Source: Arctopsyche grandis (taxonomy: Eukaryota > Arthropoda > Insecta > Trichoptera > Hydropsychidae). Taken from it: a stretch of DNA of 64,000 bases. This document shows, one piece after another, positions 2,602-57,403 of the stretch. Every line of letters begins with the position of its first letter. Position 1 is the stretch's first letter. Location of the stretch: contig NC_135365.1 of the NCBI RefSeq assembly GCF_051622035.1, forward strand, positions 15,480,001 through 15,544,000, written 5' to 3'. The notes below the pieces were generated by a model. It saw only the letters and a list, made by a program, of their open reading frames with translations. It had not been told where the DNA came from and did no database searches. A program made the position numbers and the translations under genes.

Positions 2602-3272
2602 TAGTGGCGGACTGGCCATACAAGCGAACATGCCCGATGGCATGTGGGCCCCACTATCTGTTAGAAAATATGGGCCCTCAGTAAAATTAAATAACTTTTT
2701 AACTATTTCAGTGTAAAAATGTACTCAGTTTGATGGTCGATTTTTGGGAAAAAAATTTTCGCCTGTGGCGCTTTTTTCGCTTTTTACATTATATTTTTTC
2801 AAAAATAAGCTTATTTTTTTCATATTTTAAAACGCAATAAGGTGTATGCAAAGAATATTTTCCATTTTTATTCCGATATAAACAAGATTTATTGAAAATT
2901 TTTCAATTTGACCAATCTTTGCCTGCCCCTCCCAAGAAAAAGCTGAAATGACGTCCCCGATTGTTTTCTACCGAAAGTAAAAGCCGCTTTTATGCCGCAT
3001 TCTTTTATGATGCATTCTATTTACCTAGGACAAGGATTAAAACGAAATATACAATGTAATTTATGGATTTATTTTGCTTTTGCCATTTTTCTTGTACCTA
3101 AATTTGTTAATTCCCATTTTTTAAAATTTTATTTATTTTTTGCCCTTGATTTTTAGCGTGATGGAAATAAGAAAATGTTGTTATATGGGGGGGGGGGGAC
3201 AAATTTTTTTAACCCTGGTTGGGCCCTCTTTGACTCCTGACATGTACTGATTTCAGTCCCAGTCCGCCACTG
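2602..3272. mobile_element. hAT-type non-autonomous element, copy 1
   Basis: Ends TAGTGGCGGACTGG / CCAGTCCGCCACTG form a terminal inverted repeat of the CAGTGGCG type common in hAT elements. It is flanked by an exact 8-bp duplication TGTACATA at 2594-2601 and 3273-3280. No transposase frame is present. A longer relative lies at 60175-61622 with its own 8-bp duplication. The interior includes a G run near 3187-3198 shared with that copy. Confidence 0.88.
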
Positions 3273-3301
3273 TGTACATATGTATATATTGAGTGAATGC
3301 G

Positions 3302-6380
<3,079 letters not shown>

Positions 6381-6926: not shown

Positions 6927-7984
6927 GTTGCGCTTCGACCAGATAAAACGTATTTTAAATTGACAAAATCGAGGTTTCGTATTCTCCTATTTTCTCCTCC
7001 AAAACTGGACCAATTTTTAAAAAAATTTCATCATCGGTATGAGAAAGATACTTTCTGTGCATCTATTGGCGTATTTTTTTTCAATCGACAGTTAAATAAG
7101 CACGCTGGACTCGTTTCGTGGGTGTAAAAAAGAGGCGATTTTATAGATGTTTGGCGGCTCCTAGCTCTTATAAAAAAAAATTCGGGTGTGACCAACCCAT
7201 GACTTTATCTATGTATTTGAGGAATATAAGAAGGTTAAAAAACAAAATTAGATATTGAACTAATAACTATGATAGCGATACAAATTGAGCGCAAATATAT
7301 GCAAATCCTTGCACAAGACAAAAGTTCTACTTCCGGTTGTCGGATTTTGTTCAAATTTTTTTTATTATTTAAAACCAGTATAATTATTATACACATTAAA
7401 TATCAAGAGGATAAAAATAATTTAAAAGGTCAAAATAAAATAATGAAATATTGTTTAAAAAAAAAATACTACTTCCGGTTTACAAATTCTGACCAAAACG
7501 TCACCAAATCTAAGTTAGTACATAAAGAATACAAATATAATTTTTCAGCTTAATACGTCCAGGGGTGTGGACAGGATCCAGGCGACAACATTTTTGACCT
7601 TTATAATAGGAGAAAATCCCACTTCCGGTTCATTAAATTTGCTAATTTTATTTTTTATTTTTACTTAAAATCACTATCTTTATTATACAAAATAAATATC
7701 AAGACGCTTAAAATAATTTAAAAGGTCAATCAATAGATCAATAAAACGTGATCAGTAATCGATTCTGAGTTCGAATCAGTCAAAATCTCGAGTTCGAATT
7801 TTCACATTATCACAAAACTTCATCTATTGTTACTACGTACATAGATAAAGTAATAATTAATCAAAAAAAATAAAACGATAGATGCACCCCAATGGTGGAT
7901 ATCCATAGCATATTATATATATAAATAATTTCTCTAGTGCCATAATTGAGGAAGGGAGAAGTATAGTACGTTTGTATGGACAAG
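6927..7984. repeat. AT-rich unclassified repeat region with recurring TACTTCCGGT motif
   Basis: The motif ACTTCCGGTT recurs at about 7329, 7473 and 7621. Two stretches ending in AATAATTTAAAAGGTCAA are about 290 bp apart, so part of the region is an old tandem duplication. Frames of 70-94 codons here lack recognisable domains. No gene is supported. Confidence 0.45.
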
Positions 7985-8057
7985 GCGCTGCATTTTTTTT
8001 TTCATTTTTTAATTTTTTTCATATTTTTCATTACTTTCATAGTTTTCATTTTTTTGT

Positions 8058-8546
8058 GCCGAAGGCATCGAGGGCGCTGGGGGCGAAGGCCCCGGGGTGC
8101 CGGAGGCAGCGAGGATGCTGGGGGCACCGGAGGCGTCGGTGGCGCTGGGGGCGAAGGCCCCGGGGTGCCGGAGGCACCGGGGACGCTGGGGACGCTGGGG
8201 GCGCTGGGGGCGAAGGCCCCGGGGTGTCGGAGGCAGCGAGGATGCTGGGGGCACCGGAGGCGTCGGTGGCGCTGGGGGCGAAGGCCCCGGGGTGCCGGAG
8301 GCACCGGGGACGCTGGGGGCGCTGGGGGCGAAGGCCCCGGGGCGTCGGAGGCGCCGGGGGCGCAGGGGGCGCCAGGAGCGAAGGCCCCGGGGTGCCGAAG
8401 GCATCAGGGGCGCTGGGGGCGCCGGAGGCGTCGGCGGCGCTGGGGGCGAAAGCCCCGGAGCGTCGGAGGCGCCGGGGGCGAAGGCCCCGGGTTGCCGGAG
8501 GCATCGGAGGCGTTGGAGGCGAAGGCGGCGGGGCATCGGCGATGCA
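8058..8546. repeat. GC-rich minisatellite block 1
   Basis: Degenerate tandem repeat of about 41 bp built on GGGGGCGAAGGCCCCGGGGT plus GCCGGAGGCACCGGGG variants. Composition is extremely GC-rich against an AT-rich background. It opens long frames on both strands whose products are only Gly/Arg/Ala or Pro/Ala repeats. Confidence 0.9.
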
Positions 8547-8619
8547 GAAAACGTAATTCGTAATTTTTATTTTTTTAATTTTTTTCATATTTATTATTTT
8601 CATAATTTTCATTTTTTTG

Positions 8620-8952
8620 TGCCGAAGACATCGAGGGCGCTGGGGGCGAAGGCCCCGGGGTGCCGGAGGCAGCGGGGACGCTGGGGGCGCCGGAGGCGTC
8701 GGCGACACTGGGGGCGAAGACCCCGGGGTGCCGGAGGCACCGGAGAGGCTGGGGGGCGCCGGGGGCGCAGGGGGCGCCGGGGGCGAAGGCCCCGGGGTGC
8801 CAAAGGCCTCGGAGGCGCTGGGGGCGCCGGAGGCGTCGGCGGTGCTGGGGGCGGAAGCCCCGGAGCGTCGGAGGCGCCGGGGGCGAAGGCCCCGGGTTGC
8901 CGAAGGCATCGGAGGCGTTGGAGGCGAAGGCGTCGAGGCATCGGTGATGCAC
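8620..8952. repeat. GC-rich minisatellite block 2
   Basis: Second array of the same degenerate unit as block 1. It is preceded by the same T-rich leader ending in TTTTTTTGTGCCGAAG, so leader and array were duplicated together. Confidence 0.9.
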
Positions 8953-9108
8953 AAAACGTAATTCGTAATTCGTAATCACTTCGTAATTTGTAATTCGTGC
9001 ATGAATTTCTTTCCGAAACCAGTCGATTCGATATCTTTAACTTTATTTTGATTCGAGTTTCAATTCCTTTTCGAAACCACCCGTTGAAATCAACGGGCCT
9101 TACACTAG

Positions 9109-9279
9109 TCATATATATAAAGACGCTAATCTGTGTGTGTGTATGTGTGTGTGTTTGTGTGTGTGTTTGTGTGTGTGTGTCCTAATGAATCGATAAAAAT
9201 CGATAAATTCATTTTGCGACAAGACGACTTTGTCGCGACTCGAACCAATCATCTCAAAATAGCCTCAATATATGTCTAT
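9109..9279 (+). mobile_element. Helitron family A, 5' fragment (tandem to the preceding element)
   Basis: Starts TCATATATATAAAGACGC directly after the CTAG of the previous element, then a GT microsatellite (about 9132-9180) and the antisense box-B region GACTCGAACC. It is cut short at about 9279, where an inverted copy of the family's 3' end begins. Confidence 0.6.
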
Positions 9280-9452
9280 AAGTGTCAGGCCTGTTGATTT
9301 CAACGGGTGGTTTCGAAAAGGAATTGAAACTCGAATAAAAATAAAGTTGAATCTTGAAAAAATAAAGATATTGAATCGACTGGTTTCGGAAAGAAATTCA
9401 TGCACGAATTAGAAATTACGTATTACAAATTACGAATTACGAATTACGTTTT

Positions 9453-9943
9453 GTGCATCGCCGATGCCCCGATATCTTCGCCTCCAACGCCTCTGATGCC
9501 TCCGGCAACCCGGGGCCTTCGCCCCCGGCGCCTCCGACGCTCCGGGGCTTTCGCCCCCAGCGCCGCCGACGCCTCCGGCACCCTCAGCGCCCCCGATGCC
9601 TTTGGCACCCCGGGGCCTTCGCCCCCTGCGCCCCTTGCGCCCCCGGCGCCTCCGACGCCCCGGGTCCTTCGCCCCCAGCGCCCCCGGCGCCTCCGACGCC
9701 CCGGGCCCTTCGCCCCCAGCGCCACCGACGCCTCCGGCGCCCCTGGCATCCCCGGTGCCTCTGGCATCCCGGGGCCTTCGCCCCCGGCGCCCCCTGCGCC
9801 CCCGGCACCCCCAGCGTCCCCGGTGTCTCCGGCACCCCGGGACCTTCGCCCCCAGCGCCACCGACGCCTCCGGCGCCCCCAGCGTCCCCGCTGCCTCCAG
9901 CACCCCGGGGCCTTCGCCCCCAGCGCCCTCGATGTCTTCAGCA
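9453..9943. repeat. GC-rich minisatellite block 3 (inverted relative to blocks 1 and 2)
   Basis: Same degenerate GC-rich unit, in reverse complement. With blocks 1 and 2 it makes the two arms of a large imperfect palindrome centred near 9.2 kb. Confidence 0.9.
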
Positions 9944-10196
9944 CAAAAAAATGAAAATTATGAAAATAATAAAAAATATGAAAAAAATTGAAAAAATAAA
10001 AATTACGAATTACGTTTTCTGCATCGCCGATGCCCATTTTTTCCCCATACTGGTTGATGGTTGATCATAAGAAATCGGAAATCGATTCGAACGAAAGTCG
10101 ATTGTCGACGAAAGCCGAAGATACGCGAATGATTGGTTCCTCATACTTCTAAAGAATAATCGAATATTAAGTAATTTTAGAACATTTTTTCTATCG

Positions 10197-11599: not shown

Positions 11600-14500
11600 A
11601 TGGCGGCGCTCAGGGCCGCAATACTCTTTTTGGTATTTGCCTATGCCACAGCTAGCGTCTTGAAAGCAAAAGTAATACAAAATTATATTTTCATCAATCT
11701 TAATAATACTTAATTATTAACTAAATTGAATTTTGCTTTAAATTTTAAGCCAAATATTTTAACAAATCTGATGAGGGAACGCCATCCGAGAAGTATCGAT
11801 GTAAGTGCTGCCCATAGTCTCATCAATGAACCCAAACTCAGAGTAGATTTGTCACCAAAAAGTTACAAATTGGAATTGGAGCCCATTATGGAGAACAATA
11901 CCTTCAGGGGTAGAGTAATAATAAATGTTGAATGGGAGTCCGAGAGCAAAGAGATATCTTTGCACACGCACCAAGATCTTAAAATATTGCAGGTGGAAGT
12001 TAGAACCAAAGATCAAATGTAAATTTTATTTTAATGAAAAAAAATAGAATATAAACAATTTAAATGATGTTTTTCATAAGATTCATTTACTTTGTTGTTT
12101 TAGTAACTTGAATGATGCACCTACAATATTGGATGCAAAAACAAGGGAGAGGCACGAGAAAAAACCAATATTAACCATTTTCTTATCTTCGTCGGTTCCA
12201 AAAGGTACTGTAGGAGAGATTGAAATAACGTTTGAAGGATGCTTAGAGGTAGATATTACTGAAGCGTTCTTTGTTACAACTTTTGATGATATAACTGGAA
12301 AATCAACGTAAATAAATTTAAAAAACCTTGATAGTAAATATTGAAAATTATGTTCATTAAAATCTTTATTAAAAAATATGTATGTTTTTAGGAAATTAGT
12401 AGCTACACACTTAAGACCAAACAATGCACGAAAAGTATTCCCTTGCTTTGATGAACCAGCATATAAAACACCATTTGAAATCAGTATCCGAAGACCTAAA
12501 AATATGATTGCGTTATCTAATACCCCATTAAAGAAAACTGAAGATATGTAAGTGTTTTAACTTATGTATTTAAGATATTTTAACTTATATTTGGTTTCAT
12601 ATATGAAGTTGCTGAATCTGTAAATAAATGAACATTTTTTATTGCATGCTAGACCTTCAGATCCTGATTCAGTATGGGATCATTTCGAAACAACACTACC
12701 GATGTCAACATATTCTGTGGGAGTAGTAGTTGCCAATTTGACAAAGACTGATTCCATGGTGGTTGATACATTTGGAAATAAAATTGGTAAGATACGAGTA
12801 TACTATTTTGTTCAGATTCGATTTTTTTATTTATAATATTATAATAAATGTTTAATCGTTATAGAAATTAGCATTTGGTGTCGTGCCGAATATATGGAAG
12901 CATTAAACGAAACACTTTCAAAAGTAGAAAGTACCTTCAAAGAGATATCCCAATTTTGGGATCTGTCTCTACCTCTTAAAAAACTTGATTTAGTCGCACT
13001 GCCATATTACACCGGTGTAAAATCAGCTGATAACTGGGGTCTTATTATTTTCAAGTAAGTTGCTTTGGTAATTTGCATTAATAAAAATAGCTAAATAATA
13101 ATTTTGATTTAAAACATCACAGAGAAAGCGAGCTTTCATCTAGAGGATATTTTAAATTGTCTCAAGAATTAATGTACCAATGGCTCGGTGGTCTTGTATC
13201 CCCAGCATGGTGGAGTGAAGCCCATATAAACAAAGCGTTAGTTGGTTATTTATCTGCATCAACAGCGATAAAGGTAGTTTTCATAATTTACAATACTATT
13301 TTGATGTTAAAGTGATTGTTTTGATGAATATTTTATTGTTGAAGATGGATAATGGTTCCGAGTTGGATGGAAAGTGGCCAATGACTATTTTGTATTCTTT
13401 GTATTACGAATTCAGTAAGCGCTATCCTCATTCACGAATCACTGGAATGAAACAAGAAACGACGTGTAGTAAAATAGAGCTTCTTTTCCGTATGCTCAAC
13501 TACACAATTGGCGAAAAAGCTTTCAAAGTTGGTTTACAGACATTCATCAACCAAAAGTAAGCATTGCACTCAATGGAATGTGGCTTTTATGTACAAAAGG
13601 TATAAAATAAACATAATGCTTTTAGGAAATATGGCGTGTTTACTAGTGACGATATTTGGAAAGCACTTCACGTGGCCGCCGTTGAAGAAAATACTATTTC
13701 TCAAAGTATGTGTGTCAAAGAAATTGCTACATCATGGGTGACGAAAGATCGACTACCCGTTGTATCAATTAACAGAAATTATCAAACTAAATCTGCTGTA
13801 GTTAATCAAGTAATTATTTCATTTAAACTTTACATGTTCAAGAGTTCAAATCAGCATTCAGGAATTCAAACTTTTTAAAACCACTGTGTGATTTGTTCAA
13901 ATGTGAGAATAATATCTCAAATGATATGATATGACCTACATATATATGTAAGCTTGTAGCAATATCTAAACCAAGTGTACTCAGACGATTATAGTCATTT
14001 TCACTTATGTATTAATTAAATTTAAGGTTCTAATACGTTAGTGTTCGATATATATAGTAGACTAGTGACTGGTTCAATCATACAATTGGACGGTTTGAAA
14101 ATATGGATAGATTTTAACTCATACGTATAAGATTAAAACTATTAAGACAATTAATTTTTAGAGAGTATATTTACGCGAGAGACCTCATGATGTACCCGGA
14201 CAAGATAAATTGTTGTGGTGGATTCCACTTGTAATTATGCAACAAAATAATCTGAATTTCTCTAATACGACACCAACTACGTGGATACCAAAAACGAAAG
14301 ATTTGACAATCGAAAATATGCCAAGAAGTGATCAATTTATTATTGTAAACCCGGAAGAAATAGGTAGAGAATAAAATATTATTATATTTATTTAATACTT
14401 CATTTGACTATCAATAATAATAATATATACATATAGGTCCATTCCCGGTGAATTATGATGAAAAGAATTGGAACATGTTGGCCAAATATTTAATGTCATC

Positions 14501-15764
14501 ATCACGACTAAGTATTCCGGTCAACACTCGAGCAAAATTGTTGCATGATGCATGGAATTTGGCGTATGCTGGAGATTTAAGTTTTGCAACTGCGCTTGAT
14601 ATGACCGCATTTTTGAATAAAGAGAGGGATCATCTCGTTTGGGATCCAGTGTTTACAATGATTGATCACATTGGAAGACACATAGATAGCTCTATTGTAC
14701 ATAAGAAGTTTGAGGTGCGTTTCCATACCCTACATTATAAAATTTTGACTTTAAACTGTTTGCAATTAATTTTTTACTTAAAATGTCTGTGATTCGTTTT
14801 TAAGACTTACGTTCGTAATCTGCTGACACCGTTATATGAAGAGTTGGGTGACGAAAAGAAAGATGATGAAAGTTGGAAAATAAATTTACGTAGTTTAGCT
14901 AAAACGTTCTTATGTAGAGCTGGATATAAGCCATGTATTGAAGAGGCACAAGCAATGTTCAAAGTTTGGATGGATGCATCAAACCCTGATGAGGGAAATC
15001 CGTAAGTTTAATATCGAAAGATTTACCCACAACTGTAATATATCTCAACATAAATACATCAAACTTGTTTGTATTTTCAGGATATCAAATCAATACATAT
15101 GCCCAGTGTTTAAATGGGGATCTAAAGAAGAATGGGAGTTTGGTCTCCAGAGAGTAATTAACTTCCCTTCTAGTAGGAGACTAAACGAAAGAACATACCT
15201 TTTGAAAACATTGGCTGGTTGTCCAATCACGTCTTGGAAAATTCAAAAGTTGCTAAACATAACTATTTTAGAAGAAAATGGTAATTTCACTGACAATGAC
15301 ATATTCCTCATCTTTAGTATGTTAACTGGAGGCTCAAGGGGCTATACTACATTGTTTGATTTCCTAAAAAATAATTGGGATACTATTAAAATAAGGTAAT
15401 TTGTAAATGGAACTATAAAAGTGGTGATATTTATTTTCAAAATTACGTGAATTTGTGTTTCAGATTTGAAAACAAGACAAACCTATGGGATAATCTTATA
15501 TCATCAGCCACAAGCGTATTTACAACTCAAGAAGGATTAGACTTGGTTACTAAATTGTATGTTTCCAGACAAGGCGAGTTTGGTAGTGCTGAACATATTA
15601 TAGAGAAGTCCCTTAAAAATATCAGAGAAGAAACTAAATGGAGTGTTGATAACCTTCCAATTATTGAAGACTGGTTAAATGTGTATTTGAAAAAAGCCGC
15701 AGCAGAAGGAAAAGACGACGGAAAATTCATTGGTTACGATCAAGAAGGAAAAGAAATGAATTAG
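11600..15764 (+). CDS. M1-family aminopeptidase-like protein, predicted catalytically inactive (954 aa)
   Basis: Fourteen coding exons: 11600-11671, 11750-12018, 12104-12307, 12392-12547, 12653-12786, 12865-13054, 13123-13273, 13345-13556, 13626-13809, 14162-14363, 14437-14714, 14805-15001, 15081-15395 and 15464-15764. All have GT-AG borders and the phases agree, giving 954 residues. Residues 1-18 look like a signal peptide. The N-terminal domain ends with the family hallmark RKVFPCFDEP (195-204). Where active M1 enzymes have GxMEN, this has KSADN (331-335). Where they have HExxH it has QELMY (356-360), with Lys379 at the exact place of the third zinc ligand Glu. The catalytic Tyr region reads TTCSKIELL, so Tyr is absent. 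WW(371-372), the ERAP-C-like C-terminal domain (about 570-930) and overall length are normal. There is no hydrophobic C-terminus, so no GPI anchor is evident; it is likely secreted or lumenal. The fold is kept but zinc binding should be lost. Binding or scaffold roles are inference. Confidence 0.93.
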
Positions 15765-16425
15765 GACCGAAAAATGTGATTTTTTATATGAAAATGTAAT
15801 AAAAATCAGTTTTAATTGATTACTGAATTGTACAAAGAATTTTAAAAATGAATAAATATTTGTAATGTATTTGTAAAATAAAAAATATTATATTTAAAAT
15901 CATCTATTGAAACCAAATACATATTAATCAAATTTATTATACATGTACATACATATTATTGTATATTTATAAATATTATAGCTTGTGGAAACTAATCTGT
16001 GAGGAAAATTTTTGTTTAACTTGAATTTCACAGTGAAACAAAATCTTAAATATGTGTATTTAATTCATTTTATTTTCTCATTTTAAGACCTGTCTTTCGT
16101 AAATTCCTATAATGATCTGTTCATGTATATTTTATTCCCTCTTTGTTCGGGCAGCAATATTTTTTCATTAAATTATTTTGTTTATTTCCAATTTGAAACA
16201 TAACTAAGGAATGTGTAATATTTTTTTGAAAACAGCAAAACAATTTAAAAATATATTTATTTGGGAATTTGTATAAAATTAAATATATTTCATATAAAAA
16301 TAATAAAACAAGATGTACCTATTTTACATCAAAACGTATTTGGTAACGAGGTTATACATATTATATATCAACATATACTCGTAGGTAAGTGTATAATTAT
16401 AAAATTTAAATTAAATGACAATATA
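15765..16425. other. convergent 3' intergenic region
   Basis: AT-rich region between the stop codons of the M1-like gene (+) and the minus-strand TPK gene. AATAAA-type signals occur at about 15797 and 15850 for the M1-like transcript. No other gene is seen. Confidence 0.6.
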
Positions 16426-17560
16426 TCATTGCTCTACATCTGGTATACTGAAAACATCATTGAATAATGGTAGCAGACCCATACACCAAAGAAGTTGAAC
16501 TTCATTTTCAATAGTAACAAAGTTAGATCCATCATATGTATTAGAAGTACTTACTAGAGATCCAAAAGCAAGTGATCCACGGTCTGAAATAAACACAGGA
16601 AATATACTGAGATATATTCAGATCACTGACAAAGTTCTTAAGCAATTGAAAGAAATTAAAATAAACCTAAATTCCATTTAAGTCCCGTTGTTGATAAATT
16701 ATCGCATTTTTCTCCAATTGGAACAAGTCCACACCAAGCATTTTTAGATGTTTTAAGAGCGTCAGGAACATTGATTACATGTTTGCCAGGTTGTAATAAC
16801 CATGTAAAGGAATCGTTGGAAAATAAACATGTTGTAATTGACTCATTACATAACTTTAACTTCACAATTTCATAAAGTGTGTTAATATTTGCCATAATCT
16901 GATCGATTCGACCAGACGATTGACATATCACAAAAATTGTATCAATCTGTAAAGCACAAAATCAAATAAATAAAATGAAATAAGTTTAAATTATAATAAA
17001 ACAAGTTTAAAATAATAAACACTTCAATATTTCTCTGCAAGCACTGTTCTGATAGAGCTCTTATAGCTTTAGTGAAATCTGTCTCATCCTGGTTCTCGGT
17101 GCTAATTATCTGAAAATAATTGATATGTTTTCCCAAAATACATGCATTCTTTATTAAAATAAATAGCAATTTATATTTACTTTTGCTCCAATATCTTGCG
17201 CTTTCTTCAAATTAACATTGTTTATTGAATCGAAATCACCAGTGACAATATCAATGGGAAGTATTTTTTCATCAGTATTGTGTCCATCAATGAAATTAAA
17301 CCATCGATTTGTTCCACCATCTACAGTCATTCTTATGTTCGCTGTAATTTAGTATTAATCAATTAAATAAATACATCACTTTAACTTTAATACTTGGGGA
17401 AACATATATGATTGCAACAACCTCCATTCCAAAATGGAATCAAAAATTGACTGGGATGGATAATAGGTTGATTCAATATCATAACAGCATAGTTTTTCAA
17501 TTTGAGCTTGATACATTCCTCTGAATTAAAATATTGAACACTATTTTTCGATTGCTCCAT
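16426..17560 (-). CDS. TPK1: thiamine pyrophosphokinase, copy 1 (274 aa)
   Basis: Five coding exons on the minus strand: 17560-17422, 17341-17181, 17109-17023, 16946-16667 and 16583-16426. GT-AG borders and phases agree. The enzyme transfers pyrophosphate from ATP to thiamine to make the cofactor thiamine diphosphate in the cytosol. Family motifs are intact: VDGGTNRW (53-60), GDFDS (81-85), the acidic [16 protein letters not shown], and STTGLKWNL followed by STSNTYDGS, which lines the thiamine site. Length fits the animal enzyme (about 240-280 aa), with a C-terminal extension ending in DVEQ. A TTTTAG acceptor directly precedes the ATG, so a 5'UTR exon lies upstream. It is paired head-to-head with a paralogue at 20500. 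Confidence 0.93.
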
Positions 17561-18976
17561 CTAAAAGTATTTATTTTCAGATGAAATTAATATAAAAAAA
17601 GCTTGTGAAAATATCACAATTATAAAAGGTACTATATTGGAAACGTCACTTTGAGACTGACATCACTGATACTATTATATTAGCCCTAGCAATTGTTTAC
17701 TCAGCCATGATCAAATAATTTTTAATTCAAAATTAAAATCGTTATACATACAGTGATGTCACCCTAATGGTTTCCATGGGTTTCCGGAAACCCGTTATTT
17801 AATCTAAAAATTCATATAATTTTTGTCAAAAATTATACAAATCTTGAAAATTTAATGAACTCTCATGTAATAGTGCCTTGGACGAAAAAAAAGGTATATA
17901 CATATTATATATATTTTCAAAATAATTGTATTGAAAAAAAAAATGGAAACCCATTCTATCAAAAAGGGTTTGGTGATTATTAATAACAAAGCGCTCGCCC
18001 AAAAGTAACTGAAATCTGTATAACGAAACATCTGGCAGCCGAAAAGTGGACATTTCGGACTAACAAGAACAATATTTCTTGTGGATACAATATTTCGCGT
18101 GGATAGTTTTCGATTGATGCTGTTTTTGGGTGCCAGATGTTCCATGGTCGAGATTTTAGTAACTTACATACATACACGAGATCGCTTTTTGCTGAATAAT
18201 CACCGACCCATTTTTTTACCATCCGTTTTTTAAAACCGAATTTGATTTATGTATATTTTTCTTCAAGAGAATTTGAATATAGAAATTTTATGAAAGCAAA
18301 CAAAAATACCCATATCCCAATTGTAAACTTTGAACAAGACAACATCCATAAAATGTGTATAAGTTTATGCAACATAAAAATAAAATAAACATAATATGAT
18401 ATGAAATTATAAAATGATTCAGATGGAATATAAAAAAATTAGGACTATGCACTAGAATCATTCAGTAAACGTCCATTTGTACACATATATATATATGTAT
18501 GAATTTTCCATTTGTACATACATATGTATATGTATGCATATACTTGTATAATTTCATTTTTTAACAAATATGTTTAGTTTTTAAAATAAATTATAATTTA
18601 TTGCACATAGATGGATGCAATTTTATAATTTCATTATAAATTGTAATTTAGAAAAACTGAAATTTGAAAATATTTTGTATGTATTTTTGGTACTTTATCA
18701 TTACGTTGAAATTACTTGAAGCCTAATGATAACATAAGATTATCAATTTAAATTTTACATTTTAACTTCTTCAGTGATATTTTTTATATTATTAATATCT
18801 CATTAATCTTATCTGTTTATAAAGTGCCAATCCTGACATTATTTTATTTGTTACGAATATACTCTTACATTATCTCTCGCTAGACGGTTCAACAGAGTTG
18901 TACAATTTGACCACTTAGTTGATTCAAATTTGAAGTGTTATTTTTGTCTTTATTGAGGTTTGTTCATTTCTATATA
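17561..18976. other. spacer between the divergent TPK genes (left part)
   Basis: Apart from the foldback repeat at 17945-18225, this is AT-rich DNA without a supported gene. The 5'UTR exons and promoters of both TPK genes must lie within 17561-20499, because both start codons sit directly behind splice acceptors. Confidence 0.5.
17945..18225. mobile_element. foldback MITE with about 100-bp inverted arms
   Basis: The left arm (GGTGATTATTAATAACAAAG ... ACATCTGGCAGCCGAAAA) reappears, inverted and diverged, at 18120-18222. Related single sequences occur near 42700-42830 and 44695-44830. The arms are long relative to the element, as in foldback-type MITEs. The exact termini and target duplication are not resolved. 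Confidence 0.6.
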
Positions 18977-19189
18977 TCTAATCTATAATTTGGAAAGAGA
19001 CTTTGTATGTATGTATGTATCCTTGGTCGTCGTCGTCGTCTTCGTCGTCCGTAGATCGGTGACGTCATCGAACACGTGATTCGATTTTTTTTTTTTTTCG
19101 ATCCATGGGCGCCGATTTTTTTTTTCGTTTCAATGGATTCACCCCCGCGGGGGCGCAAGGCGAGTAGCTTCATGGGGCCCCGCCAGGGG

Positions 19190-19785
19190 CGCCACAAGGG
19201 GCGCAGCCCCGAAGGGGGCCCGGGGGGCGCAGCCCCGTGGGGCCCCAGCCTCATGGGGCGCAGCCCCATGGGGCTCAAAAGGGGGCGCCACAAGGGGCGC
19301 AGCCCCGTGGGGCCCCGAAGGGGGCCCGGGAGGCCCAGCCTCATGGGGCGCAGCCCCATGGGGCTCAAAAGGGGGCGCCACAAGGGGCACAGCCCCGTGG
19401 GGCCCCAGCCTCATGGGGCGCAGCCCCATGGGGCTCAAAAGGGGGCGCCAACAGGGGCACAGCCCCGTGGGGCCCCGAAGGGGGCCCGGGGGGCCCAGCC
19501 TCATGGGGCGCAGCCCCATGGGGCTCAAAAGGGGGCGCCACAAGGGGCGCAGCCCCGTGGGGCCCCGAAGGGGGCCCGGGGGGCCCAGCCTCATGGGGCG
19601 CAGCCCCATGAGGCTCAAAAGGGGGCGCCACAAGGGGCGCAGCCCCGTGGGGCCCCGAAGGGGGCCCGGGGGGCCCAGCCTCATGGGGCGCAGCCCCATG
19701 GGGCTCAAAAGGGGGCGCCACAAGGGGCGCAGCCCCGTGGGGCCCCGAAGGGGGCCCGGGGGGCCCAGCCTCATGGGGCGCAAGC
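19190..19785. repeat. 90-bp GC-rich minisatellite
   Basis: Units beginning TCATGGGGCGCAGCCCCATG recur every 90 bp (19501, 19591, 19681 and earlier degenerate units). Each unit contains several short palindromes such as GGCGCAGCCCC and GGGGCCCC. As 90 is a multiple of 3, several long frames stay open on both strands; they are not genes. Confidence 0.95.
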
Positions 19786-20190
19786 CCTAATAGGCATTAA
19801 CTAAGGGGGGCGAAGCCCTAGACGGCAATTAATCATGGGGGCGCGGAGGGGCGAAGCCCTAAAAGGCAACTGATCATGGGGGCGAAGCCTTAGACGGCAT
19901 TTAATCATGGGGGCGCGGAGGGGCGAAGCCCTAAAAGTTATTAACTAAGGGGGGCGAAGCCCTAAACGGCAATTAATCTTGGGGGCGCGGGGGTGAAGCC
20001 CTAAAAGGCATTAACTTAGGGGGGCGAAGCCCTAGACGGCTTTTAATCATGGGGGCGCGGAGGGGCGAAGCCCTAAAAGGCAACTGATCATGGGGGCGAA
20101 GCCCTAAACGGCAATTGCTCATGGGGCGTGGAGGGGCGAAGCCCTAGAAGGCAAAGGCTCAGGGGGGCGCCGAGGGCGAAGCCCTAGAAG
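19786..20190. repeat. GGGGCGAAGCCCTA-based degenerate satellite
   Basis: A second array follows the 90-bp satellite. Its core GGGGCGAAGCCCTA alternates with GGCAATTAATCATGGGGGCG at irregular spacing. The core resembles the element's own 3' end (GAGCGAAGCCGGGTA), which may be its source. Confidence 0.85.
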
Positions 20191-20499: not shown

Positions 20500-21837
20500 A
20501 TGGTTTCAATTCAAAATTCAAACAGTGACAAAGTATTGCCAATTAATATTTCAAATCCAGAAAACTGCATAAAATTAAATATTCAAAATTATGGTATAAT
20601 AGTGCTGAACCAAAAGATTTTACATCCTAAAAACTTTTTTGTATCGTTTTGGAATAAAGGTGGAATAAGGAAAATTAAATACCGTATCATATTAGGTTTT
20701 TAGATATTTTATTTAAACATGTCTTTTCTACAGCTACATTGAGGATAACAGTAGACGGTGGAACTAATAGATGGTATAATTTCATCAAAGAACATAACGC
20801 AGAGCATTGTGTAGTGCCAATGGATATTGTTTCTGGTGATTTTGATTCAATCACAGATCGTAGTATGCAAAAAGCCAAAGAACAAGGAGCAAGTGTAATA
20901 TATGACACACAAAGGTTCAATTTATTTATTCCATATCGTTTGTTACCAGATTGTGGTCGATTAAATTTCAGATTATAAATACCCATGACCAAGATGAGAC
21001 TGATTTCACAAAATCTGTAAGAGTTCTATCTAAATATTGCGCTTCAAAAAAAATTAAGGTAACATATTTTCAATAGTAGCATATTTTTAATATATTTCAT
21101 ATGATATAATAAGTAACATACTTTTAATGTTAAAAATAGCTCAAGTCTATATTTGTGATATGCCAGTCATCCGGTAGAATCGATCAGATTATGGCGAACG
21201 TGGATACATTGTTCAAGTGTTTTAAACTTGAGATAGTCGATCCCCAAATAGCCGTGCATTTATTTTCTCACGATTCTTTCACATGGCTTCTGCAATCTGG
21301 TAGACATAAGATATGCATCCCAGATTCACTGAAAATGTCCAAAAATGCATGGTGCGGACTGATTCCTGTAGGTGAAACATGTAGCTGCATAACAACGACA
21401 GGTTTAAAATGGAATTTAAGTAAGAAAATATTTATAATTTGAAATTATGTATGTATTTATGTATGAGCCTTCTAGAAACATAATCTACTGTATACAAAAT
21501 ATAGAAATAGCAATCGAAAGAAGCTATGATTCACTCGGAGCTATGATTCACATTCATATATTTCACAAATCATTTATTTTTTGTTTACTTTATTTTTATT
21601 AGAGTTATCGCTTTGTTTCAAAACAACTTTTTATATGTATAATATTTTTCAAAATATATAATGCGAATGTGCATTTCAGATAAAAATGCAATGGCGTTTG
21701 GATCTTTGATAAGCACTTCTAATACTTTCGATGGATCTGATTTTGTCACTATAGATAATGAATCGCCATTATTGTGGTGTATGGGTATTTTGCCCATATT
21801 TCATGACATATGTGGTACATTAGATGAAGAACAATGA
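20500..21837 (+). CDS. TPK1: thiamine pyrophosphokinase, copy 2 (281 aa)
   Basis: Five coding exons: 20500-20659, 20734-20894, 20972-21058, 21140-21419 and 21680-21837. Exons 2 to 5 have exactly the same lengths as in copy 1 (161, 87, 280 and 158 nt); only exon 1 differs. The exon 2 donor is AGT|GTAATA. A downstream GTTC donor would put a stop in the next exon. Motifs are intact: VDGGTNRW (60-67), GDFDS (88-92), [10 protein letters not shown] (112-121), GRIDQIM (148-154), TTTGLKWNL (221-229) and STSNTFDGS. Across exon 4 the two copies are, by eye, a little under two thirds identical, so the duplication is old. Start chosen at the ATG directly behind a TTTAG acceptor, as in copy 1. It should make thiamine diphosphate; a divided expression pattern between the copies is inference. 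Confidence 0.93.
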
Positions 21838-27485: not shown

Positions 27486-27765
27486 AGTAGAATATAAGAA
27501 AACAAACACGAGTAAAAAAATCGCGAGAGTTCCCAATTTCAATAGTTCCTGATTTTAAAAATTACCAATTTCAAAAGCTCAAATGTGATGCAATTAGTTA
27601 AATAAAGAACACTTTTTTTTTTTTAGAAAGTAATTCAACTTTCATTATGTCACTTTGCATTGGTATCTAAAATGTATTCTTCAAAAGTGCTAGGGCCCCG
27701 TTGAGGCCCTTGTTCAGTTGGGGTAACTAAGCTTGCGCCCCCCTATATATATATACAATATATAT

Positions 27766-29961
27766 ATTAACCTAACAAATGCCCTGCACTCCGTTAAAGA
27801 CGTTAGTGTTTTAAGTAAAGTAGATATAGGTAGCGATCACAGATTAGTCCGTGCCAAGATGGCCATTAATATAAATTGCGAACGTAGGAAATTAATAAAA
27901 GGATGCAGTAACTCTCCAGATTTCGCTCAACTAAGGTCTAGGAAAAAGGAATTCGAACTCGAACTTGGAAATCGATACGGGAAATTAAACCCAGAAGCAG
28001 ACATCGAGGAATTGAACACTGTAATTAGTTCGGTTCTAACCTCAACAGGTAAGAAATTAGGTGGATTCAGGAAACAGATTAAATTAAGCAAAATTTCAGC
28101 GGAAACAAAAAACCTAATTAAGCATAAAAGGAATTTAGATAGGGATAATAATAAGCAAGAATACAATCTAGTAAATAAGGAAATTAAAAAGAGAATAGTC
28201 AGGGATGTCAGGGATTTTAACAGCAAGCTAATAGAAAATACCATTAAGAATAACCGTAGCCTGAAAAAGTGCAAACAGGATCTTTTCTTAGGCAAAAACC
28301 AAATGATCGCAATCAGATCAGAGAGCGGAGTAATAATTAGGAATAGAGAAGAAATCATAGACAGAGTTTACACGTTCTATGCAAAACTATACGAGAACGA
28401 CAACGGCCAATTCCCCGCTCTGGAATCGACACACGGCCAAAGGGTTCCTGCAGTATTGCCTAGCGAAGTAGAGGCCGCGCTAAAAACTGCAAAGAACGGT
28501 AAAACCCCAGGGGAAGATAATATTCCCATTGACTTACTAAAATGTGGCGGCCCCCCCCTAATTAATATCTTAGCTAGGCTTTTCAGCAAATGCATCCAGA
28601 ACCAAGCTATACCAGAAGGATGGAATAACGCAACTATCATTTTAATACACAAAAAAGGCGACAAAAGCGATATCAAGAACTACCGACCCATTAGTCTACT
28701 TTCAGCGGTCTACAAGCTCTTCACGAAGGTTATTACAGAAAGGCTGAAGAATATCCTCGACGAGAACCAACCTATAGAGCAGGCAGGGTTTAGGGCAAAT
28801 TTCAGCACAATGGACCACCTCCAAGTAGTTGGCGAACTAATCGAGCGCGCCAACGAATATCAACGGCCATTGTGCCTAGGTTTCGTCGATTATGAGAAAG
28901 CCTTCGATACAGTTAGTCATAATGCAGTACTTAACGCTCTAAAAACACAGGGAGTGCCGGAACCCTATGTGGGACTGTTAGCTGCAATATATAAGAATGC
29001 CACAGCTTCGGTTAAAATTTTTTCAGGTACAGATAGATTTAGCATAGGAAAAGGAGTAAGACAAGGAGATACAATCTCGCCCAAGTTATTCAATGCGGTG
29101 CTTGAGGGAGTTTTCAGGAAATTGGATTGGGATACAGCCGGAGTAAGCATCAATGGTCGCTTTTTGAGTCACCTTCGGTTCGCAGACGATATAGTTTTAG
29201 TAGCTCGTGATTCAGCTGACTTACTTATCAGACTAACACAGCTGGACGGGGAAAGTAGAAAAGTAGGATTAAAAATTAACGTAGATAAGACTAAACTAAT
29301 GTTCAATAGTTATTGCATGCCTGATAGCATCCCCTTAGATGATAAACCAGTAGAAGTAGTAAATAATTATTTATATTTAGGTCAAATAATTGACATGTCT
29401 GGTAGTAAAAATGAAGAGATAAAGAGACGTATGAAATTAGGGTGGAGTGCATTTGGACGGATGAATGCTGTTTTTAAATCAAAAATGCCACTCTGCCTGA
29501 AGAAAAGGATCTTTGATCAATGCGTTTTGCCAGTGATGACGTATGGATGTGAAACTTGGACACTGAACGCCAAGATGCAAAATAAAATCCAATGCACTCA
29601 AAGAAGTATGGAACGCTGTATGCTTGGCATAACGAGGAAAGACAGGAAGCGGAACACGTGGGTGAGAAATATGACAAGGGTAGTGGACATAGTGGATAGA
29701 GTGAAGAGATTGAAATGGCAATGGGCGGGTCACGTAGCTAGGAGGATGGACGAAAGGTGGACAAAAGAAGTGCTTGAATGGTACCCGAGAAAAGGCAAAA
29801 GAGTAAAAGGAAGACCGCAAGGAAGATGGGTGAACGAAATTAGGAAAATGTGCGGAATGAGATGGATGAGTGTTGCGCAAAACAGAGACGAGTGGAAGCG
29901 TGTTGGAGAGGCCTTCATCCAGCAGTGGATGGCGAATGGCTGTAAATGATGATGATGATGA

Positions 29962-52496: not shown

Positions 52497-53151
52497 ATGG
52501 GGTCGATGTTCAGAAGCGAGGAGATGGCCCTGTGCCAGCTCTTCATACAGCCTGAAGCGGCGTATACGTCCGTTTCGGAGCTCGGAGAGAACGGCACCGT
52601 TCAATTTAGAGACGTATGGATCTAAGTGTTCTTTATTTTTAAATATATAGGTTTGTGCATAGATTTTAGTTTCGGTTTTTGTATTTTACAGTTGAACCCT
52701 GAAGTGAATGCATTTCAAAGGAAGTTTGTGAATGAAGTTCGTCGGTGCGATGAAATGGAACGTAAGCTGCGTTACATCGAAGCTGAGGTGAACAAAGATA
52801 GTGTCACTATACCCGACGTTAGGGAAGCCCCACGAGCTCCGAATCCAAGGGAAATCATTGATTTGGAAGTAAATATTGTTTTTTGTTACGTTTGAGTGGA
52901 AGGTTTCATTATACATATGTAGAACTAATGTCTGAGTATTTAAGCATGTGTCTACTAATTTTTAGGCTCATTTAGAAAAGACAGAAAATGAAATTCTTGA
53001 GCTGTCACATAATGCTGTTAACTTGAAATCTAATTTCTTAGAATTAACAGAGTTGAAGCATGTGTTAGAGAAAACCCAAGTGTTTTTTACTGAACAAGAA
53101 GAAGCCAACGGAATGGATTCACTTACAAGGTAATATTTTTGATGAGTTGTA

Positions 53152-53211
<60 letters not shown>

Positions 53212-56200
53212 AATAGATAAGACGTAAATTATTTATGGATTTGATATGTTTTCATTGAAATTTTAGAGCGTTGATACCTGAAGATGCTCAGCAGACCGGT
53301 GCGATCAGGGGAAGGTTGGGTTTTGTCGCCGGAGTTATACAACGAGAGAGGGTTCCGGCATTCGAGAGAATGTTGTGGCGTATATCACGAGGAAATGTCT
53401 TCTTGAGACAGACCGAGCTTGAGAAGCCACTCGAAGATCCGACAACTGTAATAACAAAGTTTGATTAATATGAAAAAATTATATTTTTATTTTACATATA
53501 TACATATGTATATTAACCTTTTGGTTTTAGGGCAATCAAATTAACAAAACAGTTTTTGTTGCATTCTTCCAAGGAGAACAGTTGAAATCACGCATAAAGA
53601 AGGTGTGCACAGGCTTCCATGCCTCCTTGTATCCGTGCCCGAATTCGCACAATGAACGTCAAGAAATGGTGAAAGGAGTGCGCACTAGATTGGAAGATCT
53701 CAATTTGGTAAAAAAATAAACATATGTTATACTTATATATAAATATAGTCAACTCACTACGGGCCGTAAACTCATATGCTGTGTTTTAATAAAATTTAAT
53801 TCAAAGGCCGTCAACACAGCGTGTGTGTTTATAAATCCTCCAAACTTCATACAAAAAAGTATTATTTATAAAATTTTATTTTTAACTTCCCTTCATAGAT
53901 ATCATATCAGCGTATCTTTATCCAAAATATCGATAAGTCAATTTATAAAACATATATTTCAATGGTTTAAAGGTTGACATTTTTTCTAATATCGATAATA
54001 TTCCAAAATAATAATATTCAGAAAAGATTTAAAATCCCCAGGTATTGAAATTCACTGGTTTTTTCTCGTGTAGTATATATATATATTTCCAAAATTAAAG
54101 CTTTCATTCGAATGAATAACATGATGATCTATAAACTTAAAAAACTTTTGTCAGGCGACGACTCACTGATGCTACATTCCTTTAAGCTCCTAAATGGTTT
54201 CCTTGATTGTCCCAATTTACTGAATAAGGTTGGTTTCAGGATCCCAGTTAGGTATTCTAGACACGTTGCACTCTTTTCACTTAATCCTTTCAAAACCAAT
54301 TCCCTAAAATAATCCTATCTACAGCGTGTTTATCGTATATTTAACGGGCAGCTGAATGACGTTGATCTATTCTGTATTTCCTTGCACTGTTCTATTTAGT
54401 CTTGTTTTAGTTTTTATTATTTTTTTTTTCATTTGTTTGTCTCTATGTACCATTGTATGTAATTTGTAGAAATCTATAATTGGACTCAGATGTTATTTTG
54501 TTACATTTATAATTTATTTTTATGCATTTCTACATCTTTAATAGATCTATCTACACATAAATAAATAAGATAGATATCGTATATTACATGAAAATATGTA
54601 TATTAAAATGTATATAAATTTTGTACAAAATTGAATACAACAATCACCGCCGTTTGAGATATACTGATCTAATAATTCAACTGAAGATAACTGCAAAGAA
54701 GCTGTATCCCAGTTTTTAATTTAATTGATGAAAAGGTTTAGGGAATACGTTTAATTTACAAAACCTATTATTTTTACCGTTACTTTGCGAAAAATACGCA
54801 GACTCTCATAGAAAGTTTTCGGAAAATCGGTCCGTAATGAGTTAAATAAAAAATTTTATCTTTATTTTAATTTTTGTATGGGAACACTACTATGTAAGGT
54901 TACACATTGTGTTCTAATCATATATATTCTTTTAAGGTTTTGAATCAAACTCAAGATCATCGCCAACGTGTTTTAGTTAGTGTTGCTAAGGAGCTCACCA
55001 GTTGGACTATAATGGTTCGCAAAATGAAGGCAATCTATCACACTCTTAATCTTTTTAACATGGATGTTACTAAAAAGTGCCTCATCGGAGAATGCTGGGT
55101 TCCGGTCGCCGATTTGACTTCTGTGCAAAAGGCTCTCGCTGATGGATCAGTAAAAAAATATTAATGCTAATCTGAATAACGACAGATTCTATTAAAAATT
55201 CTTTTGATTTAGTAAATTTTTGAATTTTTAGAATGCTTGTGGAAGTTCCATTCCATCATTTTTGAATCGCATTGAAACAGGCGAAAATCCACCAACGTTT
55301 AATCGAACCAATAAATTTACTCAAGGATTCCAAAACTTGATTGATGCCTATGGTGTGGCCAGTTACCGCGAAGCAAATCCAGGTATGTAGTGACTTTGTA
55401 TATATGGTTTTAAGAATATTTGAGGTTTTTTTAATTGTATTATTAACCCCTAGATGTTCTAAAACTGTGTTTTATTTTTGTATTATATGTACATATATTT
55501 TTTTTATGTTTCAGCTCTGTACACAATAATCACATTCCCGTTCTTATTCAGTATTATGTTCGGCGATTTCGGTCACGGTTTGATCATGTTATCTTTTGCT
55601 GCTTACATGTGCATTTTTGAGAAGAAACTTTCCGCATTGAAGAGTAACAACGAAATATGGAACATCTTTTTCTCTGGACGATACATAATCTTGCTTATGG
55701 GAATTTTCTCTTTGTATACTGGTCTCATTTATAATGATGTTTTTTCGAAATCTGTAAATATATTCGGTTCGAGTTGGAGGGCAAATTACGACAATGATAC
55801 TATGATGCACCACAAAGATTTACAACTCGGTCCAAACACAACATATTTGAATTATCCGTACCCACTCGGTATGGATCCTGTTTGGCAGGTAAAGTATCTT
55901 CTACTTTATGTACATATATATAGTGTGTGTATATACATATATATTTATTTTGATTGTTTATATATAAAATGAATTGTTTTGAATTTTAATGTTGTAGCTT
56001 GCTGAAAACAAAATTATATTTTTAAATTCATATAAAATGAAATTGTCCATCATTATCGGTGTTATTCACATGATATTTGGTGTCTGTATGAGTACAGTAA
56101 ATTACAAGTAAGCTATATCAATTGTATAAATATTGTTTCATGTATACTTTTACATATGCGGCTAATTTAGCAATAAGTATAATTTTTTTTTAATCATAAC

Positions 56201-57403
56201 TATGTTTTATTTATAGTTTCTTCAAACACCGATCATCAATATTAGTTGAATTTTTGCCACAAGTATTGTTCTTGGTGTTGCTTTTCTTTTATATGGTCGT
56301 CATGATATTTATCAAATGGTTTATGTACAGTGATTTCGCCGACGAAAAAGGTAAACAGTGAAACTATCATATTGATAAAAAAAATAGCACAAGTTATACT
56401 AAATGTATTCGAATTATTTTTTCAGACATTTACTTAAAACCTGGTTGTGCACCTTCTGTACTTATTTTGTTCATTAATATGATGCTTCTGGGAAAGACTA
56501 CAGTAAAAGATCCAAACTGTAAACCTTACATGTTTGATGGTCAATATGATATGCAATTTTATTTTGTTATATTTGCGGTGATATGCATTCCCGTTATGTT
56601 GTTTGGTAAACCGCTCATCATCAAGTTTTCAAGTAAAAACAAGAAGCACGAGGTAATTTTTGAATCATAATGAATAAGTATTATAATATAAATACATATG
56701 TTCAAAGATCGCTTTGAATATCGCAAAATTATTTTATAATTAAGCAGACTTCAAATGGAGATGTGAATCAAGGCTTGGAGATGACCCCAGAGGCAATTGA
56801 AGCAGCGAAACCTTCAGCCTCGGATGGTGAACATCATGAAGAAGAAGAAGCGTTTTCTGAAATTATGATTCATCAGGCAATTCATACTATAGAATACGTG
56901 TTGAGTACTATATCACACACAGCTTCATATTTACGATTGTGGGCTTTGTCACTGGCTCATGCCCGTGAGTATACGTTGTTTAGAATGTTATGAATTAATT
57001 CATACGTAAGTCATTTAGAATCGTTTTAAAGTTTTATTGTTGTTTTTTTTTAGAACTTTCTGAAGTACTGTGGAACATGGTACTGAAATTTGGTTTGACT
57101 AGTAAGGGATATGAAGGAGGATTCTTCCTGTTCCTGGCATTCGGTGGTTGGGCTGTCGGAACTTTGGCCATTTTGGTGATGATGGAAGGACTTTCAGCGT
57201 TTTTACACACACTTCGTTTGCATTGGTAATGTTTTTTTAAATTTGTCTTGTTGTGTTATTTTAAAATTCAACGTTTTACTAAATGTGGTGAATTTTTCAG
57301 GGTGGAGTTTATGAGTAAATTTTACTCAGGTCTTGGCTATCCATTCCAGCCATTCTGTTTTAAAACTATCTTGGAAAGCGAAGATGCACCGTCAGAAGAT
57401 TAA
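52497..57403 (+). CDS. Vha100: V-type proton ATPase subunit a (Vo, 100-116 kDa), 838 aa
   Basis: Fourteen coding exons: 52497-52613, 52692-52868, 52966-53129, 53267-53447, 53531-53707, 54937-55149, 55232-55382, 55515-55888, 55998-56107, 56217-56350, 56426-56652, 56748-56964, 57054-57225 and 57301-57403. All have GT-AG borders and phases agree. Subunit a of the membrane Vo sector forms the proton half-channels beside the c-ring and holds the stator. The N-terminal cytosolic half (1 to about 390) opens with [13 protein letters not shown] and includes [20 protein letters not shown]. The membrane half starts at [22 protein letters not shown] (exon 8). The essential channel arginine is Arg738 in [20 protein letters not shown], and the second conserved arginine is Arg802 in HTLRLHW. 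Length matches the family (about 830-860). An acceptor at 52457-52458, 38 bp before the ATG, implies an upstream UTR exon. Insects have several paralogues; which one this is cannot be told here. AATAAA-type signal near 57509. Confidence 0.96.
53152..53207. repeat. (TA)n in a V-ATPase intron
   Basis: About 55 bp of TA dinucleotides 22 bp after the exon 3 donor. Confidence 0.95.
54099..54570 (+). mobile_element. 5'-truncated CR1-like retroposon in V-ATPase intron 5
   Basis: A frame at 54112-54312 encodes [20 protein letters not shown] and [20 protein letters not shown], typical of a CR1-type ORF2 C-terminus. A T-rich 3'UTR and an ACATAAATAAATAAG tail follow. It lies in the sense orientation and accounts for much of the unusually long 1.2-kb intron. 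Confidence 0.7.

Follow-up and report, generated by a model that had tools for sequence, protein, structure and literature searches.

The 64,000-nucleotide window analysed here (the whole stretch C11:15480001-15544000 of the trichopteran Arctopsyche grandis, C11 being contig NC_135365.1 of a genome of 475.7 Mb in 189 contigs) carries a full-length gene of peptidase family M1, related to aminopeptidase N (APN), in which the zinc site is lost and the general make-up of the enzyme is retained. The claim of a sequence-only reading that its 14 exons join cleanly into 954 residues was borne out, as all 13 introns are GT-AG and the spliced sequence runs through 954 codons to a TAG stop with no internal stop; the two other frames of the spliced sequence contain 67 and 92 stops, and G+C by codon position is 42, 36 and 32%, compared with 22.5% in the introns. 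A custom spliced aligner, run with protein and DNA, gave identical exon bounds, which, being protein-guided, is a consistency check and not independent proof. Splice forms that would restore the catalytic motifs had been named as a check on the reading, and run on the DNA this check returned no alternative exon: a six-frame search of the whole window found no HExxH or GxMEN in the gene region able to restore the site by other splicing, and its one other hit was an isolated minus-strand HExxH at 3977, which lies opposite a reverse-transcriptase frame. No second M1 gene was found in the window by tblastn with either the window protein or pig APN.

All three Pfam domains of an APN/ERAP-type protein exceed their cut-offs: Peptidase_M1_N at residues 60-254 (138.5 bits, cut-off 25.8, E 3.6e-40), the Peptidase_M1 catalytic domain at 296-485 (57.1 bits, cut-off 27.7, E 2.4e-15) and, as the strongest match, ERAP1_C at 583-909 (227.5 bits, cut-off 38.2, E 3.7e-67), so the predicted protein has the make-up of the M1 fold. 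Among the 60 of 85 matches listed, the closest solved relative is pig APN (E 1.3e-72), followed by ERAP2, glutamyl aminopeptidase, ERAP1, mosquito AGAP004809 and leucyl-cystinyl aminopeptidase. Ten N-glycosylation sequons are present, and four cysteines that form pairs in pig APN are matched at positions 721, 728, 757 and 797, the last by eye, as it does not fall on the pig column in the alignment. We take the protein to be probably a soluble, secreted one, because its N-terminus is signal-like and its C-terminus is charged and without a hydrophobic tail; by hydropathy it thus does not show the glycosylphosphatidylinositol (GPI) signal of GPI-anchored insect midgut APNs. The hydropathy would agree with the signal peptide and missing GPI site that are given for the APN10-like protein discussed below. 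TAF2, a non-catalytic M1 relative brought up in the sequence-only reading, is a distant parallel; it is a nuclear subunit of TFIID, and the signal-like N-terminus makes this identity unlikely.

The active site was compared with pig APN and with 80 prokaryotic M1 proteins, the top-ranking ones among at least 575 confirmed stretches, which were fetched by the patterns GAMENWG and R[KM][SA]FPCFD and are thus biased towards conservation. Seven columns of the M1 active site have canonical roles, among them a Gln to which the amino group of the substrate binds, and the prokaryotic rows carry the standard residue at all seven in 80 of 80 cases, bar one gap at the Gln. In the window protein all three zinc ligands are absent: the two His columns of HExxH hold Gln356 and Tyr360, and the third ligand is replaced by Lys379, which sits exactly 18 residues past Tyr360 in the alignment columns. 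The GxMEN Glu column holds Asp334. At the catalytic Tyr, the HMMER and multiple alignments place Cys433, and a two-sequence MAFFT alignment a gap. Neither HExxH(x18)E nor GxMEN nor the catalytic Tyr, by which an active M1 enzyme is recognised, is therefore present. The motif replacements first read from the sequence (KSADN, QELMY, Lys379 at x18 and the lost Tyr) were all recovered in the alignments, and the broader statement that the entire active site had been replaced stands for the zinc ligands, the Tyr and most of GxMEN and falls for Glu357 and for Asn335 of GAMEN, the only residues of the site that remain. Two changes went unmentioned in that reading: the Gln column holds His188, and the GxMEN-to-HExxH spacing is reduced by 11 residues relative to pig APN. 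A changed enzyme, with a remodelled site performing other chemistry or holding another metal, might be read into the fact that His188, Lys331, Glu357, Lys379 and Cys433 occupy the old active-site columns; we regard it as highly improbable, as further invariant neighbours (LWL and FA flanking the third ligand, and a Gly three residues past the Tyr) have been lost too, suggesting loss of the site over its re-use, and no precedent turned up in the literature that our search covered.

The window gene lies in a large M1 cluster. A profile search of the genome gave 56 M1 matches, 34 of them in one cluster at C11 15.46-15.86 Mb; the window gene is absent from the 56, its M1 domain falling below an exon-by-exon profile search. 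Counting the window gene, the cluster holds no fewer than 14 M1 genes or gene fragments. We modelled 17 other M1 genes, 13 from cluster stretches (L089-L101) and four from elsewhere (L083, L085, L088 and L102). These are uncurated models from the custom aligner, several of them partial, and L093, L096, L097, L099 and L100 hold one to four stops; further M1 places outside the modelled set are at C3:13.70 Mb, C4:31.70 Mb, C8:19.56 Mb and C8:1.30 Mb and in frames on C119 and C173. All 17 keep both His and the Glu of HExxH, the GxMEN Glu and the Tyr, and 16 keep the third zinc ligand, the exception being L096, probably a mis-spliced model. GxMEN itself varies in five of them (VAMEN in L094, GAIEN in L098, GGMEN in L099, NAMEN in L101 and EAMEN in L102), and the Gln column holds Gln in 12, His in L089, Thr in L100, Leu in L102 and a gap in two. 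Among the 18 M1 genes compared, the zinc site is thus lost in the window gene only. For example, L089 (C11 15.462-15.466 Mb) and L090 (15.561-15.567 Mb) align with the window protein over nearly their full length but, unlike it, have GAMEN, HExxH, the Glu and the Tyr. The paralogues are 18-29% identical to the window protein. A genome search with that protein gave 34 matches (best candidates only), of which 13 were its own exons and the other 21, at 26-60% identity, lay at or beside M1 places; no closer copy was found in the genome. The cluster spans both strands, its subgroup L092-L101 has mostly HExxHMWFGxEV-type sites, and it may include pseudogenes, as the five models that still carry stops belong to this subgroup. 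A hydrophobic, transmembrane-like N-terminal segment lies in the open frame upstream of the L090 model, and L091 ends in a hydrophobic tail. The M1 matches on C119 (L081, 27025-28641, in a frame of 710 aa) and C173 (L082, 18445-19962, in a frame of 843 aa) are in single long frames and may stem from bacteria, either symbionts or contaminants, whose DNA entered the assembly.

We defined 101 near-invariant columns as those with conservation of 95% or more across the prokaryotic proteins and the same residue in pig APN. Of these, 45 fall in a catalytic strip that starts shortly ahead of GxMEN and ends shortly past the catalytic Tyr, and 56 fall elsewhere. The window protein retains 58 of the 101, distributed as 15 of 45 in the strip and 43 of 56 elsewhere (Fisher p 1.6e-5); when each prokaryotic protein was left out in turn, the omitted protein retained at least 86.4% in the strip and at least 84.7% elsewhere. 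A second alignment, which included the paralogues, gave 14 of 45 and 43 of 56 for the window protein, and 24 to 43 of the 45 strip columns for 16 paralogues: 40 in L089, 42 in L090 and 43 in L085, the nearest relatives, 43 in L083, and the lowest numbers in L096 (24), probably mis-spliced, followed by L099 and L101. Identities to the three nearest relatives (L085 being a partial model) are 20-22% in the strip, where those three share 57-58% with one another, and 26-27% in domains III-IV, where they share 27-31%. The strip thus appears to have lost its special constraint, and the C-terminal half differs from its relatives roughly as much as they differ among themselves.

The window gene shares nine of 12 introns with L090 and seven of 13 with L089 in both place and phase, which implies that it descends from this kind of M1 gene. 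An artefact of the assembly or of the gene model is barely credible in this light: the model does rest on DNA, but the introns are GT-AG throughout, nine of the 12 L090 introns match, and the altered site consists of many separate codon differences in three exons with no frameshift. In domain I the closest relative is L089 (36%), a gene on the opposite strand about 25 kb from the window gene, and it too carries His in the Gln column. In a first tree, from whose 22 rows L098 and L083 were left out, the window gene grouped with L089 and L085 (support 47/78). A second tree, made with 11 of the 19 rows from this genome and pig (L083, L093, L094 and L096-L100 were omitted as short or redundant) and with none of the four prokaryotic rows, joined it weakly with L089 (60/65), and placements with L085, L090 or L102 were not rejected (p-AU 0.32, 0.28 and 0.28). 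The branch of the window gene in the first tree is two- to threefold longer than those of its relatives (1.85 vs. 0.91 for L089, 0.78 for L085 and 0.62 for L090); in the second, L102 is also long-branched, at 1.49 vs. 2.3-2.5 for the window gene.

The lost active site and the long branch are what a recently silenced pseudogene would display, a decayed aminopeptidase copy whose frame has been kept by luck, but we think this very unlikely. The 954 codons and 13 introns are intact, with no stops, frameshifts or lost splice sites. In a neutral simulation which started from the present coding sequence and used an intron-like base composition, with 100 copies at each divergence, none of the 100 was stop-free at any of eight divergences from 0.05 to 0.7 changes per base, and at 0.05 changes per base 11% of residues were altered. 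Furthermore, change is concentrated in domain II, and domains III-IV are as near to the relatives as the relatives are to each other. Because of this strip-concentrated change alongside conserved domains III-IV, and because of the simulation and the intact splice sites, decay is strongly argued against on the genomic sequence, and the open frame, splice sites and domains III-IV agree with the sequence-only reading of a maintained and not a decayed copy. The simulation and the intact splicing do not by themselves show whether a new function arose or an older, non-catalytic one is being kept under relaxed constraint.

We therefore favour, as fairly likely, an old, maintained, secreted M1 pseudopeptidase, a former APN/ERAP-type duplicate in the local cluster that would bind and not cut. 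The loss of catalysis is well supported, and the gene is very probably a genuine pseudopeptidase that has been maintained; the binding role is putative. The earlier proposal of a maintained, non-catalytic M1 protein is supported, whereas the decoy or structural role, for example in gut or reproductive tissue, that came with it is conjecture, secretion being probable from the signal-like N-terminus and the hydropathy of a C-terminus with no membrane tail. Several points weigh against this reading. The long branch would also fit relaxed selection, and the paralogues L099 and L101, which look active, have likewise drifted in the strip (29 of 45 each). The faster change reaches beyond the strip, as identity to L089, L090 and L085 is 31-36% in domain I (39-42.5% among those three) and, within domain II, 22-35% ahead of the strip (40-62%) and 24-35% past it (38-49%), so that the change appears concentrated in the strip but not confined to it, the rest of domains I-II being somewhat faster. 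Lastly, the support comes from the genome sequence, and that for secretion from hydropathy.

We suggest that an APN/ERAP-type M1 gene was duplicated long ago within the local cluster, and that the copy lost catalysis and was nevertheless retained. Its product would be a soluble, secreted, glycosylated M1 fold, unable to hold zinc in the usual way or to cut peptides. The M1 fold encloses a cavity that accommodates peptides, and a peptide or protein partner may be bound in or near it; such binding is the most likely, putative, mechanism. With the zinc ligands lost and Gln188, Gly331 and Glu379 replaced by His, Lys and Lys, the old metal pocket would have turned basic, and Lys379 may occupy the former place of the zinc, paired with Glu357, keeping the domain folded. 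A more specific version, that the strip was rebuilt under selection as a basic pocket with Lys379 standing in for zinc, which captures a specific acidic ligand outside the cell whilst the remaining fold stays under enzyme-like constraint, is rather doubtful. The main rival to a protein binding on its own account is a partner of an active M1 enzyme, which might for instance form a heterodimer as its non-catalytic subunit or regulate a neighbour in the cluster. The window gene does sit among active-looking M1 genes, its C-terminal half is the part least changed relative to its relatives, and in mammalian APN the dimer contacts are in the C-terminal half; we nonetheless consider such a partner unlikely, and prefer the self-standing binding protein.

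Insect M1 proteins with broken motifs have already been reported, and the window gene adds to a known kind. In a moth transcriptome, the APN-family protein AgAPN10 from Anticarsia gemmatalis, a member of class 10 of the lepidopteran APNs, has neither the GAMENWG nor the HEXXHX18E motif entire, and is predicted to have a signal peptide and no GPI site (PMC11554492). The window protein likewise is without intact zinc and exopeptidase motifs, although in AgAPN10 these are possibly incomplete rather than absent, and the likeness is by description only. Similarly, three clusters in a Lucilia sericata transcriptome fall under MEROPS M01.UNW, family M1 nonpeptidase homologues (PMC4826915), insect M1 non-peptidases like the window protein, compared by label only, as this is a heading and not a family. 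Use of a metallopeptidase fold for binding, as we propose, has parallels in Gone early (M13), in which every key active-site position is substituted and which may trap ligands outside cells, and in Tma108 (M1), whose substrate pocket binds nascent chains (PMC11266112); Gone early, however, belongs to another family and is membrane-bound, and Tma108 works at the ribosome, with a single active-site residue changed. The accessible part of that review of metallo-pseudopeptidases has Tma108 as its M1 example and no insect M1 case, and FlyBase counts 180 genes in its Drosophila pseudopeptidase group (PMC12869072). Both motifs were intact in all five APNs examined in a mosquito study (PMC13127027), and no insect M1 pseudopeptidase was found in the accessible parts of PMC9114714, PMC11335235 and PMC8394580. 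For Drosophila CG31198 and CG11951 we found gene lists that are silent on catalysis. Among the results listed, our literature search, in which subscription journals were thinly covered and which is weak evidence of absence, brought up no work on the function of any insect M1 pseudopeptidase.

Insect APNs have been studied as Bacillus thuringiensis (Bt) toxin receptors and as a malaria transmission-blocking vaccine candidate, an interest which makes binding-only members worth separating from enzymes in annotation. The window gene plainly shows an M1 fold that has persisted long after the zinc site was lost, with active-looking cluster members as built-in controls, and it marks the parts of the fold that are kept without catalysis, domains III-IV best and domain I next. 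H188, K331, E357, K379 and C433 would serve as residues for recognising orthologs.

Table 1 Features of the window, with positions counted from its first nucleotide.
Feature	Position	Strand	Basis or remark
M1 pseudopeptidase gene	11600..15764	+	14 exons, 954 aa, stop included; splicing and spliced aligner
Exons 1-4	11600-11671, 11750-12018, 12104-12307, 12392-12547	+	
Exons 5-8	12653-12786, 12865-13054, 13123-13273, 13345-13556	+	
Exons 9-11	13626-13809, 14162-14363, 14437-14714	+	
Exons 12-14	14805-15001, 15081-15395, 15464-15764	+	last exon includes stop
Exon 1, signal-peptide-like N-terminus	11600..11671	+	hydrophobicity over 19-mers peaks at residues 3-21; from hydropathy
His188 replacing Gln	12408..12410	+	Gln in pig APN; of the 80 prokaryotic M1 rows, 79 have Gln and one a gap
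KSADN (331-335) replacing GAMEN	13020..13034	+	alignments
QELMY (356-360) replacing HExxH, catalytic Glu357 kept	13163..13177	+	alignments
Lys379 replacing third zinc ligand Glu	13232..13234	+	alignments
Cys433 replacing catalytic Tyr	13465..13467	+	HMMER and multiple alignments
Exons 11-14, most of ERAP1_C domain (residues 583-909)	14437..15764	+	Pfam
AATAAA polyadenylation-signal-like hexamer	15798..15803	+	34 bases 3' of stop codon
Reverse transcriptase frame	3241-6195	+	also with endonuclease domain
Repeat-like region	7900-10064	both	open in several frames
Thiamin pyrophosphokinase-like gene	16659-17348	-	Pfam TPK_catalytic, TPK_B1_binding
Repeat-like region	18970-19804	both	open in several frames
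Thiamin pyrophosphokinase-like gene	20679-21439	+	Pfam TPK_catalytic, TPK_B1_binding
Reverse transcriptase frame	27727-29949	+	
V-type ATPase 116 kDa subunit gene	55463-56990	+	Pfam V_ATPase_I in two frames

Rfam and tRNA scans gave no match and an NCBIfam search just three weak matches, far below cut-offs. The two thiamin pyrophosphokinase-like genes, ca. 3.3 kb apart and in opposite orientation, are diverged duplicates. Similar-looking frames from 52626 to 57226 are, by eye, probably part of the V-type ATPase gene. The two long reverse transcriptase frames are probably non-LTR (long terminal repeat) retrotransposons, and the two repeat-like regions read as Pro/Ala/Gly-rich repeats within A+T-rich surroundings.

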